Below, one piece after another: positions 3,552 to 10,654 of a DNA stretch of 18,035 nucleotides; position 1 is the first letter of the stretch; every line of letters starts with the position of its first letter. The DNA is from Sulfurimonas sp. (GTDB lineage Bacteria; Campylobacterota; Campylobacteria; Campylobacterales; Sulfurimonadaceae). The notes beneath the pieces are model-generated. The model saw only the letters and a list, made by a program, of their open reading frames with translations. It did not search any database and was not told the DNA's origin. The stretch lies in assembly GCA_026987995.1 (NCBI GenBank), contig JALSMC010000122.1, positions 1 to 18,035 of the forward strand, given 5' to 3'. A program made the translations under genes and the position numbers.

Positions 3552-4244
3552 TTATAAATAATAATTTATACTATACCTTAAATCGTCATCACACTCACTA
3601 CTAAGTAACCACTGCACATAGGAAATGTCATTTAAACAGACTTCTTCTATGTACTTTCCCTTATGCTTTCCAAAAGAGAATTTTTCTAAAAGTACTTCTT
3701 TAAAAGTTAGTTCTTGCATCTGCTCTACACTTACCATCTCTTGAAGATAGACAAACAAAAGCTTAGTTACTAAAGTATCACTCAGTGCATTATGAGCAAC
3801 TAAAGCATCTTTGATTCCATACTCAGATTTTATTTTTTCTTCTTCTTTATAAAGCTTTAACTCATAACGGAGAAATTGCAAAGAAAAACCATCACACTCT
3901 TTGATGAGATGTTTACTTACACGAAGAGTATCAATGATAGAACCCTTCCACTTAAAACCACTCTTTTGTAGCATCTCTATGTCAAATGAGATGTTATGTC
4001 CGACTAATGTATTTGCATTACTATTGTTTTTTTCTAACTGCTCATAAATACTACTCTCTTTAAAGCACTTCTTATTTTTAAGCATCTCATTAGTTATGTG
4101 GTGTACACTTGAGGCTTCAGCAGATATCTTTTTACCTTCATGTACAAGTTCGTATGCATAACTATCATCATCTATAAACGCCACTGAGCAGATAAGGTCT
4201 TTACTCTCTAACCCTGTCGTCTCCGTATCTAAAAATATCAGCAT
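3552..4244 (-). CDS. DEDDh 3'-5' exonuclease with ExoX-type C-terminal domain
   Basis: A 230-residue DnaQ-superfamily exonuclease. ExoI motif is FLDTETTGL (D6, E8), ExoII is HNISFDIEML (D88), and ExoIII is HNALSDTLVT (H151, D156). All five metal-binding or catalytic positions are present, so an active 3'-5' exonuclease is expected. Residues 188-215 (FSFGKHKGKYIEEVCLNDIS, then YVQWLL) look like the small C-terminal domain of exonuclease X and related nucleases. This is therefore more likely a repair or single-strand exonuclease than the replicative epsilon subunit, although annotation as DNA polymerase III epsilon is common for such proteins. The ATG overlaps the preceding membrane-protein gene by 7 bases. 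Confidence 0.85.
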   Translation of the reverse strand: MLIFLDTETTGLESKDLICSVAFIDDDSYAYELVHEGKKISAEASSVHHITNEMLKNKKCFKESSIYEQLEKNNSNANTLVGHNISFDIEMLQKSGFKWKGSIIDTLRVSKHLIKECDGFSLQFLRYELKLYKEEEKIKSEYGIKDALVAHNALSDTLVTKLLFVYLQEMVSVEQMQELTFKEVLLEKFSFGKHKGKYIEEVCLNDISYVQWLLSSECDDDLRYSINYYL

Positions 4245-4786
4245 TTTACTAACTTTACTCGCTTACATCGAGCAGTTAAAATCATAAAAGAAAAATATCC
4301 CGCGACTAAAATAAAAGCATATAAAACATAGATATTAAACCAATCAAAAACTGCAGTAGTTTCACTAAGGGCATATGAAAAAATGAGTGCCACTATCATT
4401 TGAGCACCAACAAGCCATATAATCAACATAAACCATTTTCTCCATACTTTGACTAAGTCACCATAACCCACCTCTTCTATTACTTGTGTTTCCCCTTCTT
4501 TTGGGCAAGTGAAAAGCTGGAGTTTGTAGTTGTTATAACAACGGTTAAAGACTGGTTTGAGTGTTCTAAATAAAAAAAGTAAAAGTGTAAAATTCCAAAG
4601 GATGAGAAACCAAAACTTTGTGATATCAAAAAGAGCTTCTTGTAACTTCAATATAATTGGTACCATACCTTGTGAGATATACAAGTAAGCACTAATGCAA
4701 ATCGCTAAAACAAGAGCAGAAAAGACACTGCTAAAAGTTAAACGCAGTGCCCATGCCAACCAAGTATAAAGATAAAACTTACTCAC
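4238..4786 (-). CDS. Integral membrane protein with about four helices, function unknown
   Basis: About 182 residues and no recognised family. Four hydrophobic spans are visible: one near the N-terminus (SSVFSALVLAICISAYLYI), one after it (FWFLILWNFTLLLFLF), and two in the C-terminal half (FMLIIWLVGAQMIVALIF and YVLYAFILVAGYFSFMIL). They are separated by a hydrophilic loop (about 45 residues, NRCYNNYKLQLFTCPKEGE onward) and end in a basic tail, RCKRVKLVKC. The chosen start is GTG at 4786, which has GGAAAAAAGA upstream and overlaps the previous stop (GTGAGTAA). GTG at 4804 would add six residues but has no ribosome site. The stop lies inside the exonuclease start, so the genes are tightly coupled. 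Confidence 0.7.
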   Translation of the reverse strand: MSKFYLYTWLAWALRLTFSSVFSALVLAICISAYLYISQGMVPIILKLQEALFDITKFWFLILWNFTLLLFLFRTLKPVFNRCYNNYKLQLFTCPKEGETQVIEEVGYGDLVKVWRKWFMLIIWLVGAQMIVALIFSYALSETTAVFDWFNIYVLYAFILVAGYFSFMILTARCKRVKLVKC

Positions 4787-5210
4787 TCTTTTTTCCAAAA
4801 TCACCGAGCATACTATTATAATGTTCTAGTGTCATAAAACTCTTCTCAAATCTATAACGAATGATAAACTCAACGACACTGTCCTTAAACTCACAATCTA
4901 CATTCTCAACTCGACCAAAATAAGCTAGTGAGATATTTTTACTTTTTACTTTGGCAGTTTTATCATAACTAATTGCTAAAATTTGTAGATATTTTCCCTC
5001 TTTTATTTCTCCTAGATTTTCTTCTAAAAGTGAAGCTCCAGAGAGGTTGATAGCCTTAAATAAAAATAATTCTTCAAAAGTGTCTATTTTTTTATCTATA
5101 CCTACACTTACAAAGAGCTCTTTTAACTGCAACATATTATTTTTGCGTGTAAGTTCATAACTCGATATCTTATTTGTAAGGTTTTTTAATCTATCTAAAG
5201 CTGAACTCAT
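4779..5210 (-). CDS. Hypothetical soluble protein, first gene of the flagellar-containing string
   Basis: A 143-residue protein that I cannot assign. It has a basic helical N-terminus (MSSALDRLKNLTNKISSYEL), no signal peptide and no membrane segment. A middle region of alternating strands (YLQILAISYDKTAKVKSKN, then ISLAYFGRVENVDCEF) suggests a beta-rich domain. The ATG at 5210 is preferred over GTG at 5213 because GAGGAA lies six bases before the ATG. The gene is first in the leftward string and has its own promoter-like sequence in the divergent region shared with murA. Its end overlaps the membrane-protein gene by 8 bases. Confidence 0.65.
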   Translation of the reverse strand: MSSALDRLKNLTNKISSYELTRKNNMLQLKELFVSVGIDKKIDTFEELFLFKAINLSGASLLEENLGEIKEGKYLQILAISYDKTAKVKSKNISLAYFGRVENVDCEFKDSVVEFIIRYRFEKSFMTLEHYNSMLGDFGKKSE

Positions 5211-6980: not shown

Positions 6981-7853
6981 TTACTCCTTAGGAAGTTTCT
7001 CTTTCATCATTTCTACTAAGTCTTCATCTAAATCGTCAATATTTGGTAAAACTATATTTGCTTTTAAGTAAAGGTTTCCACGAGTTTTTGTTTTTCTATT
7101 CATTGCACCCATCTCTTTTACACGAAAACGCTGACCATTTTTTGTGTTTTGTGGTACTTTGAGTTTTATCTCTTTTTCTAGTGTTTGTATAGCTATTTTT
7201 TCACCAAAGAGTGCTGCTGAGAGTGGCACATCAAAAGTTTTAACTAAGTCATCACCCTCTCTTTCATACTCTGGACTAGCCGCAACTGTAATTTTTAAGA
7301 ATAAGTCACCTACTCTACCACCCTGAGCATGACCTTTTCCTTTAACACGCATCTTTTCACCAGTGTTCACACCAGCAGGAATTTTGATGTCAAATCTATC
7401 ACCATTTACAGCAACAGAGTGACTCCCACCAAGGATAGAAACAACAAAAGGAATAGTAACATTAGTTTCCATGTCAAGGTTTACCTCTTGTTGGAATCCT
7501 CCGCCACCAAAACCACCACCGCCAAATGGATTTCCGCCACCGCCACCTTGAGAGAACATCTCACGAAGTATATCTTCCATACTTCCAGAACCTGCACCAC
7601 CGTGATTACGAGAAAAATCATGATAGTTTTGACCACCAAACATAGCATCACCCTGCATATCGTACTGCTGTTTTTTCTCTTTGTCACTTAGTATCTCATA
7701 CGCAGAGTTTATCTCTTTAAACTTCTCTTCTGCAGAGGGGTCTTTATTTACATCGGGGTGGTATTGACGTGCTAATTTTCTATATGCTTTTTTTATCTCT
7801 GATTCACTAGCACTCTCGTTAATTTCTAATGTTGTATACAATGATTTTGCCAT
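6981..7853 (-). CDS. cbpA: CbpA/DnaJ-type class B J-domain co-chaperone
   Basis: A 290-residue J-domain protein. The J domain spans about 4-68 with the HPD motif at 32-34 (YHPDVNKDP). A glycine/phenylalanine-rich linker lies at about 72-120, with runs such as GGGGFGGGGF, and two C-terminal substrate-binding beta domains occupy about 128-285. The four CxxCxGxG zinc repeats of canonical DnaJ are missing, which makes it class B (CbpA-like). It would stimulate DnaK ATPase and deliver clients. The ATG has GAAGGAAA upstream. It is the first gene of the cbpA-hspR operon and carries the HAIR-like operator in its promoter. Confidence 0.93.
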   Translation of the reverse strand: MAKSLYTTLEINESASESEIKKAYRKLARQYHPDVNKDPSAEEKFKEINSAYEILSDKEKKQQYDMQGDAMFGGQNYHDFSRNHGGAGSGSMEDILREMFSQGGGGGNPFGGGGFGGGGFQQEVNLDMETNVTIPFVVSILGGSHSVAVNGDRFDIKIPAGVNTGEKMRVKGKGHAQGGRVGDLFLKITVAASPEYEREGDDLVKTFDVPLSAALFGEKIAIQTLEKEIKLKVPQNTKNGQRFRVKEMGAMNRKTKTRGNLYLKANIVLPNIDDLDEDLVEMMKEKLPKE

Positions 7854-7897: not shown

Positions 7898-7934
7898 TAG
7901 TGGAATTATATCACAAGAGTTGAGTCTATGTCAA
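7898..7934 (-). promoter_or_regulatory. Near-consensus sigma70 promoter of cbpA-hspR
   Basis: Read leftward, TTGACA (7934-7929) and TATAAT (7910-7905) are both perfect hexamers, separated by 18 bases, and the -10 is extended (TGATATAAT). The predicted start near 7898 gives a leader of about 45 bases to the cbpA ATG. Such a strong promoter is fitting for a gene held off by a repressor. Confidence 0.75.
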
Positions 7935-7967: not shown

Positions 7968-9026
7968 CTATTCTCCTACATGCCTACTATCTCTAGGTGG
8001 ATAAGCCTTGTAAAAGAAAAACATTGCTTTTCGTTTATTCTTTGCTCTCCCTCTTCCTTGATCATAACAAATCCCTAATTCATAACACTGTTTTAGATTA
8101 TTTTCTTCACAGCCTTTTGAGTATATATCTGCTGCCATTGAGAAGTATTTTTTTGACTTATAATCACTAGGCGTTACCTTAAATCCTCTATCGTCCTGTC
8201 CAAATAAATATGCACGTCCAAGTCCATTACATCCTCTAACATCCCCTTTAAGACATTGCTCTTTCATATACTCTAAGCCAACACTCTTTGCAAGCTTATT
8301 TGAGGCCTTGTAAAGCTTTCCATCTTTTCCTTTAGCAATCACTATAATCTCGCTATGCTCTTTGAGTCTTACTTTAAAACTATAATTAGTAATAGATTGA
8401 GGGGTAGTACTAATTATTGCCACTACTACATGAGGATTCTTAGTAGCAAAAACTATAAATGACTCAATTGGAAGATTACCTTTAATCTCAAAAGGTACAG
8501 CAGACCCATTTGGAGGAAAGTTAGGTGTAAAAATTTGTAAAGACCCTATGGTAGAATACTCATGAGATTCATATAGAGCATCAAGTACTTCATGTACACT
8601 ATGCATTTTCCATATTTTAGGATGATTTTCTCTGTAGTTATGTACTTTATAAGCAGTCAGATTCACTGCTTTTTTAGTATTTATCCCTTTGCTACTTTTT
8701 ATTTTACACATTGATTTTTCAACAATACCATTACTATATTTTACCCTTAGAGAAAGGGTATCACTCATACCCATATACTTATATTTTAATCTAAATACTG
8801 GGTTAAAGCTAAAATTAGTACTACTACTAAGATCGTAAACAATATTATTAGCTTCTGTAACTAAAATATGTGTTAGAAAATTTTCATCTATTTGACGTCT
8901 ATTACCTGGACTTTTTATAATCATTTTAACATTTACGACATCAGCCTTTTGTTTAACTTTTATTTTTGTCTTTTCTAGTGCAAGGAGTGCTGTTATAAGT
9001 AGGTATATTATTAGTATATATTTCAT
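7968..9026 (-). CDS. Periplasmic SoxZ-like/SoxY-like fusion with C-terminal Sel1 (Hcp-type) repeats
   Basis: A 352-residue predicted periplasmic protein. Residues 1-16 are a Sec signal peptide (MKYILIIYLLITALLA). Residues about 19-110 resemble SoxZ: KIKVKQKADVVNVKMIIKSP start, an R-rich turn, a FSFNP strand and a TLSLRVKYSNG strand. Residues about 145-250 resemble SoxY: AVPFEIKGNLPIESFIVFA, then KNPHVVVAIISTTP, then RLKEHSEIIVIAKGKDGKLY. The SoxY C-terminal GGCGG carrier cysteine is absent; the chain continues into Sel1-like repeats (about 252-345) with cysteines spaced C-x7-C (C258/C266, C306/C314), as in Helicobacter cysteine-rich proteins. The domain calls are by eye. SoxYZ normally carries sulfur intermediates in thiosulfate oxidation, so without the arm this is more likely a sulfur-related binding or scaffold protein. 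No SD precedes the ATG. Confidence 0.7.
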   Translation of the reverse strand: MKYILIIYLLITALLALEKTKIKVKQKADVVNVKMIIKSPGNRRQIDENFLTHILVTEANNIVYDLSSSTNFSFNPVFRLKYKYMGMSDTLSLRVKYSNGIVEKSMCKIKSSKGINTKKAVNLTAYKVHNYRENHPKIWKMHSVHEVLDALYESHEYSTIGSLQIFTPNFPPNGSAVPFEIKGNLPIESFIVFATKNPHVVVAIISTTPQSITNYSFKVRLKEHSEIIVIAKGKDGKLYKASNKLAKSVGLEYMKEQCLKGDVRGCNGLGRAYLFGQDDRGFKVTPSDYKSKKYFSMAADIYSKGCEENNLKQCYELGICYDQGRGRAKNKRKAMFFFYKAYPPRDSRHVGE

Positions 9027-9115: not shown

Positions 9116-10654
9116 TTAATGTAAAAAGTGGCGAATTTCTGAAAAGTACAGTGACATTCCAAATTCGTTAGCTGCATCAATAATCTCTTGATCACGGATA
9201 CTTCCACCAGGCTCGATTATATTTTTCACTCCAGCCTCAGCTGCTGCATCGATACTATCACGGAATGGGAAAAATGCTTCAGATGCAAGTGCTGCACCTT
9301 TGACATCAAGACCCATATCTTTTGCTTTTTTCAAAGCACACTGAGCAGCGTCAACGCGAGATGTCATACCCATACCAACAGCTACCATGGCAGAGTTTTT
9401 AACATATACAACACAGTTAGATTTTGTAAGTGATGCAATTTTGTATGCTATTTCCATATCTTTCATATCTTGTGCTTTTGCTGCTATTTTACTTACTAAC
9501 TTAGCATTTTTTACTTCATCTTTACCAACCATGTCAGCATCTTGAAATACAAATCCACCATCAACATGTTTGAAGTCTTTTTTGTCGTTTGCTAGTAGAA
9601 GATTATCTGCACCCATCTCAAAAAGTTTGATGCGTTTTTTCTTAGCAAAAATCTCTTGAGCTTCAGGAGTGATACGACCAGCGATAACTACCTCTAAAAA
9701 AATCTCATTCATTTTCTCAGCAAGCTCGGCATTTACAGTACCGTTAACAGCTACTACACCACCAAACGCGGATACAGGGTCACATTTAAGAGCTTCTGTG
9801 TAAGCTTCTAAAAGTGTGTCTTTAATAGCAACACCACAAGGGTTTCCATGTTTAGAGATACAAACAACATTTTCTTCACCAAAACCAGCGGCAATTTTAA
9901 CAGCACCGTTAAGATCATTTAAGTTGTTAAAACTCGCTTCACCTTTAAGTGTTGTGAAGTTGTTTGTAAAGTGATTGTCAAACTCGTAAAGAGCCCCTTT
10001 TTGGTGTGGGTTTTCACCATAACGAGTATCCATTACTTTATTTCCAACAACAAACTGTTTTTCACCAAAACCTTCGTTAAAACGCTCGTTCATATAGTTT
10101 GCTATCATAGAGTCATAAGCTGCTGTATGCTCATATGCTTTTATCATATAACCACGACGGAAATCTTTAGTGTTTTTTTCATTCTCTATCGCGTCTATTA
10201 CTTCAGCATAATCTTCTACATTTGTAACAATGATAACTGCATCAAAGTTTTTTGCCGCAGAGCGAACCATAGCCGGTCCACCGATGTCAATGTTCTCGAT
10301 AATCTCATCAAAATCATCGGTTTTTTCAATAGTCTCTTTAAATGGATAAAGGTTTACACATACAAGGTCAATAGACTCAACACCTAACTCTTTTGCTTGG
10401 TCTAAGTGACTTTGCTTATCACGACGATGTAAGATACCACCATGAACATAAGGGTTAAGAGTCTTAACACGCCCTTCAAAACACTCAGGAAACTTTGTAA
10501 CTTCATCAATTTCAATAGCAGCGATGCCCGATTCAACTAACTTCTTAAAAGTTCCACCAGTTGAGATAATCTCATAACCGTTTTTTACTAAAGAGTTACA
10601 AAACTCAACTATCCCTACTTTATCACTTACACTTACTAATGCTCTTTTTGCCAA
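9116..10654 (-). CDS. purH: Bifunctional AICAR formyltransferase / IMP cyclohydrolase PurH
   Basis: A 512-residue enzyme of normal PurH length that catalyses the last two steps of IMP synthesis in the cytosol. The N-terminal MGS-like cyclohydrolase domain shows STGGT (31-35), [15 protein letters not shown] (61-75) and [12 protein letters not shown] (125-136). The formyltransferase domain shows RYGENPHQ (211-218), the catalytic K268-H269 pair in [10 protein letters not shown], and the C-terminal [20 protein letters not shown] segment. The start is TTG at 10654: it opens the conserved [11 protein letters not shown] sequence and has AAGGA six bases upstream, whereas the nearby ATG at 10659 is out of frame. 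It has its own -10 (TATAAT, 10706-10701) and appears monocistronic. Confidence 0.96.

Follow-up and report, generated by a model that had tools for sequence, protein, structure and literature searches.

Proteins in which a SoxZ domain precedes a SoxY domain within a single polypeptide chain are real, and they occur more widely than in one protein. SoxYZ is the textbook swinging-arm carrier, the cysteine of which is central to the Sox pathway, and canonical SoxY takes SoxZ along through Tat (twin-arginine) export. The fusion considered here is encoded in a stretch of 18,035 nucleotides of the Sulfurimonas sp. contig JALSMC010000122.1, referred to below as the window, by an ORF of 352 residues with an ATG start (7968-9026, minus strand), located between a purH-like gene (9116-10654) and a dnaJ/cbpA-like gene (6981-7853), both named from reading their sequences. 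Its product is tentatively regarded as an exported single-chain relative of SoxYZ, which may no longer serve as a sulfur carrier and might act as a periplasmic adaptor or competitor.

The window protein begins with a Sec-like signal peptide devoid of twin arginine (about residues 1-17, boundary set by eye; 8976-9026, on the minus strand like all the features that follow). A SoxZ domain (residues 16-110; 8697-8981), delimited by a profile envelope that extends into the last residues of the signal peptide, is separated by a linker delimited from the profile boundaries (residues 111-130; 8637-8696) from a SoxY domain identified by Pfam, a local profile and profile comparisons (residues 131-251; 8274-8636). 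In the alignment to canonical SoxY, the tripeptide GLE (residues 250-252; 8271-8279) occupies the place of the GGC of the carrier arm, and two Sel1 repeats, recognized by Pfam, by a PDB match and by their cysteine spacing, follow immediately (residues 254-341; 8004-8267). The window protein accordingly displays, in one frame, the signal peptide, SoxZ domain, linker and SoxY domain by which the Z-then-Y family is defined. The initial annotation had already described a signal peptide, a SoxZ-like and then a SoxY-like domain and Sel1 repeats with two C-x7-C pairs, and all these elements were recovered.

With respect to the profile evidence, all three families were matched. Pfam detects SoxY at residues 161-246 (E 2.8e-15) and Sel1 (PF08238) in two stretches (E 1.1e-7), both above the cut-off, and SoxZ at residues 25-103 (E 2.8e-4) with 20.9 bits, under the cut-off of 25 bits; the NCBIfam SoxZ_true model similarly gives an E of 2.6e-7, under its curated equivalog cut-off. 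The SoxY_true_GGCGG model (TIGR04488) matches with 51.4 bits (E 1.5e-13) against an equivalog cut-off of 125 bits, a threshold which also misses a canonical copy here, since the soxCD-linked SoxY of the same genome reaches only 105.7 bits. Against local profiles built from canonical sequences of the fetched loci (41 of SoxY and 41 of SoxZ after removal of redundancy), the window protein scores 92.6 bits in the SoxY domain (131-251) and 56.5 bits in the SoxZ domain (16-110); the highest scores among 2000 shuffled versions of residues 1-250 were 9.0 and 10.5 bits, respectively, which rules out a chance match. A profile made of 18 fusions retrieved from the PDB SoxZ (2ox5, E 2.8e-6) and SoxY (2nnc, E 1e-12), in this order, and when the 18 modules were compared by profile with canonical sequences, six of each kind, the probabilities were 99.8 for SoxZ and 99.9 for SoxY. 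The Z-then-Y order in one chain, proposed from the sequence at first sight, thus rests on Pfam, on the local profiles and on the PDB matches alike. The top PDB match of the window protein itself is the Sel1 protein 1ouv (E 6.2e-13), which we take to be HcpC.

The region corresponding to the carrier arm was compared with canonical SoxY proteins. From loci similar to the window or its relatives, 77 single-domain SoxY ORFs were collected, 76 of them canonical and the 77th a piece of an ankyrin fusion; in this redundant sample, which reduces from 76 to 41 sequences, GGC lies within the last eight residues of all canonical proteins (76/76) and a Tat-like RR motif occurs in 74 of the 76. Counting from GKLY, the carrier cysteine comes 13th in the soxCD-linked SoxY of the source genome, whereas a glutamate stands 13 residues after the GKLY strand of the window protein, with GLE for GGC, and the chain runs straight into the first Sel1 repeat. 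The claim that the carrier arm is gone and that Sel1 repeats stand in its place therefore holds. Loss of a GGCGG arm by frameshift, a possibility raised in the initial annotation, is ruled out because a GGC arm is encoded in neither of the two alternative frames across the junction. The window protein also differs from canonical SoxY in the absence of an RR motif, and hence of a Tat signal, and its SoxZ part, instead of forming a separate small chain, is fused and preceded by a signal peptide. It had further been stated that no sox gene is near, which is correct within the window, where the ORFs were inspected by eye; two canonical soxY genes occur elsewhere in the genome, one on contig C14 with the ending TIGGCG, the other on contig C245 next to soxZ with the ending LGGCEG, so that the window protein is an extra protein.

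Sox intermediates are bound to the cysteine of the SoxY arm, and replacement of this cysteine by serine is reported in PMC5336275 to leave the interaction of SoxYZ with SoxB in place. The reading of the window protein as a docking, non-carrier relative is therefore the one favored here. The Z and Y domains would pack together as SoxY and SoxZ do in their heterodimer, export would proceed by Sec, as a single chain allows, and a protein without arm thiol would not bind sulfur intermediates in the way SoxY does. The SoxYZ-shaped body could still dock on a protein partner, either a Sox enzyme, the canonical SoxY or SoxZ, or something else, and the Sel1 repeats might hold a second partner. The association of some modules with Sel1, with ankyrin repeats or, for the SoxY-like half found in genome G095, with a following LprI domain, supports such a scaffolding role.

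Cysteines are nevertheless present in the window protein at six positions (107, 258, 266, 306, 314 and 320), and a carrier with a displaced thiol, in which sulfur is bound by a cysteine in or beside the Sel1 repeats (C258, C320 and C107 being the candidates), would be an alternative, which we consider unlikely. C258 is located six residues past the old arm position, 19 residues after the strand, a distance that recurs in the sole tail cysteine of two other fusions (G734c5b and G696b). Among 19 fusions, 11 possess a cysteine 9-19 residues after the GKLY-like strand, to be compared with 13 in the canonical protein, seven have none, and in the window protein the first one falls at 19, in Sel1. 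Grouped by eye into 12 lineages, these proteins keep a tail cysteine in eight, lack it in three, and the window protein forms the remaining one. Some of the retained cysteines lie in a glycine-rich setting, e.g., ADGCGGGG or GGDNCS; at the carrier-cysteine position itself, alanine occurs in the ankyrin group A and glycine in G672. The eight lineages with a cysteine near the C-terminus speak against the non-carrier reading, and the family might include unusual carriers alongside non-carriers. Against a displaced thiol in the window protein, HcpC-type repeat cysteine pairs form disulfides, and the spacing of C258/C266 and C306/C314 corresponds to such pairs, which would occupy four of the six cysteines and leave C107 and C320 outside the pattern. 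In addition, C258 sits in the first repeat and not on a free C-terminal arm, and one of the groups among the seven fusions without tail cysteine is conserved.

Compared with known systems, the window protein shares both domains, with significant profile matches, with the SoxYZ heterodimer (PF13501 and PF08770; PDB codes 2ox5 and 4uwq, with 2nnc for SoxY alone), but differs by its single chain with Z first, its Sec-like signal, the lack of a GGC arm and the added Sel1 repeats. The fused SoxYZ-like carrier associated with quinoprotein dehydrogenase (TIGR04557) also joins the two subunits in one exported chain. However, proteins of this type run Y then Z and keep an internal GGGC, as exemplified by two members of family f9 (L069:3757-4494 and L070:3947-4681, both on the minus strand), which lie beside a metallo-hydrolase-like gene, SoxH-like by eye; this is the order given for known fusions in the initial annotation. 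The window protein reaches 45.5 bits against TIGR04557, in two stretches and under a cut-off of 140, whereas L069 scores 163 in one stretch; membership of the known Y-Z fusions is thus ruled out by order and score and, less firmly, by the SoxY tree, in which L069 and L070 belong to a different part from the window protein. Helicobacter cysteine-rich proteins (1ouv) have in common with the window protein their C-x7-C Sel1 repeats and export, but only two repeats are present here, as the tail of a Z-Y module. The SoxY paralogue with an AACIE arm (TIGR04487) is likewise related to SoxY and altered in its arm; the match of the window protein to it is weak (17.8 bits against 172). Fusion clades named SoxYZ-S2/S4 are described in the consulted part of PMC11237559, and the consulted part of PMC3797975 mentions a lone SoxZ-like gene and no fusion of the Z-then-Y kind. 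Among the titles and beginnings of abstracts listed in literature searches on SoxYZ fusions, Sel1 and ankyrin, none described a Z-then-Y, SoxY-Sel1 or SoxY-ankyrin protein.

The distribution of the Z-then-Y module is given here as lower bounds throughout, the match lists being complete for 66 genomes. At least two Z-then-Y ORFs besides the window protein occur in the genus (135 genomes). The first, in G028, has both domains matched by Pfam (E about 6e-6 each, SoxY just under the cut-off); in the second, in G095, only SoxZ is matched by Pfam. A sample of 397 genomes spread across the phylum, from which G028 and G095 are absent, gave the window protein alone among the matches listed. The SoxY-like match in G095 was pursued in 398 genomes of the order, which yielded ankyrin-repeat ORFs of about 1020 residues carrying SoxZ (E 3.3e-14) followed by SoxY (E 8.7e-13). 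A profile of five modules then revealed at least 14 Z-Y loci in at least 10 of the 175 genomes of family f6, and three further Z-Y ORFs were found beside these loci. With a profile of 18 modules, the 398 genomes of the order returned the window, G615 and G630 only, among the matches listed. The module makes up small exported proteins or else forms the terminal part of ankyrin proteins of about 1000 residues. Several members stay under the Pfam cut-off for SoxZ, for SoxY or for both. Against the local profiles, the SoxZ score is at least 28 bits in 16 of 18 modules, clearly past the shuffle maximum (computed on the window protein only), and 7-8 bits in G734c5b and G696b; for SoxY, 17 of 18 score at least 38 bits, the G095 copy reaching 20 bits. 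By Pfam, Sel1 is absent from the 12 proteins scanned among the other 18 tabulated fusions, which makes the Z-Y-Sel1 architecture a singleton so far. Of the survey suggested in the initial annotation, the Z-Y module was accordingly encountered in relatives, and the Sel1 version in the window protein only, among the matches listed.

Three diverged Z-Y-like genes lie within 4 kb in L121 (1320-2273 and 3315-4088, plus strand; 4206-5042, minus strand). The first one, without Pfam match but detected by the local profiles (SoxZ 1.5e-11, SoxY 1e-6), was omitted from A5, from the trees and from the table of 19 fusions; the contig-end fragment L117 (G691) was omitted from A5, from the trees and from the dN/dS estimates.

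The absence of an RR motif extends to all 17 fusions with a visible N-terminus, none of which has one in its first 35 residues, a count that omits the fragment from G691 and the truncated G095 copy and in which G688c244 is open at a contig end. The cysteine-less ankyrin version was found in at least five genomes, one copy being cut by a contig end, and the four full-length proteins of this group A all end with YGEAT and have common gene neighbors. Simple counting on 96-123 codons, used as a description and with no significance test, gives dN/dS values of 0.18-0.27 for SoxZ and 0.19-0.37 for SoxY across all six pairs of group A, SoxY being the least constrained of the four measured parts in five of the six; the pair of group B gives 0.21 and 0.30, with a dS above 1. 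In general terms, the earlier proposal that the carrier gave rise to a protein with a structural or partner-binding function is in keeping with the occurrence of a cysteine-less module in five ankyrin proteins and with dN/dS below 0.4 among the four full-length ones; decoy, sensor and adapter would be candidate roles.

These selection figures come from relatives, no orthologue of the whole window protein having been found among the matches listed. Confinement of the complete architecture to one genome is what would be expected from a decaying orphan, i.e., a chance fusion retained briefly, an explanation that we hold to be decidedly unlikely. The long branch of the window protein and the low codon score of the gene also fit such a fate: only four of 19 neighbor genes score lower, and the Sel1 part lies below all 19. 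The G095 relative, an ORF that starts inside the SoxZ domain and has stop codons upstream, points in the same direction. Decay is, however, at odds with a frame that remains open from the ATG across the signal peptide and all the domains, with repeat cysteine pairs that are intact, and with the purifying selection acting on the related module elsewhere. The GC content of the gene is 0.316. Promoter-like sites between 7700 and 9300 number nine, close to the 8.7 expected from shuffles; a sigma-70-like site with 12 of 12 matches (TTGACA, 18, TATAAT with TG; 7905-7934, minus strand) precedes the dnaJ/cbpA-like gene, in a region where the site count is not above chance.

Looking at the surroundings of the fusions, five loci (L101, L102, L115, L118 and L119) share the succession of a PHP-type gene, the fusion, and U32-peptidase-like, purE-like and glyQ-like genes, all named from reading their sequences, and L116 shares the U32-like and purE-like neighbors. 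Formate-dehydrogenase-alpha-like genes, 64% identical and below the equivalog cut-off, occur near Z-Y genes in two genomes of different genera (L124:167-2266 and L126:2149-4245, both plus strand); as a shared neighbor of the fusions this gene was rejected, two of 12 lineages being too few. None of the 16 fusion loci retrieved contained a separate ORF with a match to the SoxY or SoxZ profile, and inspection by eye showed no other sox gene there.

Such surroundings would agree with the view that exported modular proteins employ the Z-Y pair simply as two robust beta sandwiches, unconnected with sulfur, a view which appears improbable to us. The ankyrin members of about 1000 residues, in which LVIVD repeats and RTX-like repeats below threshold precede the Z-Y module, the half module placed before LprI in G095, and the genome G710, which has an ankyrin fusion and no canonical match among the matches listed (84% complete), can all be understood in this way. 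On the other side, fusions were met only in genera or families that also possess canonical sox genes, among the matches listed, and they still resemble SoxY closely, with scores of up to 101 bits against the local profile.

Other combinations of domains were also noticed. The 5'-truncated ORF of G095 contig C37 (L068:4482-5912, plus strand) comprises the SoxY-like half, detected by profile and not by Pfam, LprI (Pfam E 4.3e-5) and a final stretch with no Pfam or NCBIfam match, which recurs at the end of ORFs of 370-673 residues in other genomes (L075, L076, L077 and L091). By eye, this stretch, with no match above cut-off, is also visible in a gene located between two Z-Y genes (L120:3630-5030). 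In G729 contig C88 (L127:2869-4824, minus strand), a SoxY with a GGCGGGCG arm is followed in the same ORF by an apparent von Willebrand factor A domain, identified by reading.

As regards the origin of the fusions, the SoxY tree groups the window protein and 14 other fusions with an SH-aLRT of 94, narrowly short of the 95 that the program uses as its mark; three fusions fall elsewhere, two of which (G095 and G672) are in a wider fork holding the Y-then-Z type. The well-supported branches of the SoxZ tree require three changes or more; G028 lies close to the Y-then-Z type there, and two weak members are placed elsewhere. A single clade of all 18 fusions is nevertheless not rejected (p-AU 0.103 for SoxY and 0.435 for SoxZ), and, the branches being long, a single origin is no more than possible. 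Simple read-through of a soxY-soxZ operon is unlikely, since Y is ahead of Z in the canonical clusters looked at, and a rearrangement or a tandem copy would be needed to produce a Z-then-Y fusion. A mobile or viral origin was rejected: no phage record matched, plasmids gave a Sel1 match only, and no close relative was confirmed in viral contigs. A scan of genome contigs had a Sel1 protein as its only result.

Taken more broadly, the fusions could represent a pseudo-carrier family of the Campylobacterales, consisting of Sec-exported, SoxYZ-shaped chains. Their arm cysteine would repeatedly have been lost or displaced, and the chains would dock Sox or other periplasmic proteins on Sel1 or ankyrin scaffolds and regulate or localize sulfur oxidation in the manner of pseudoenzymes; for the time being, this proposal is rather doubtful. 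Natural single-chain fusions, some of which lack the arm cysteine, recur in several species and are tied to protein-binding repeats, offer a means to test what the body of the carrier does besides carrying and which enzymes recognize SoxYZ, and they allow one to ask whether carriers, like enzymes, yield "pseudo" versions. Moreover, when sulfur-oxidation genes are annotated from nothing more than a SoxY or SoxZ domain, non-carriers may be included among them.
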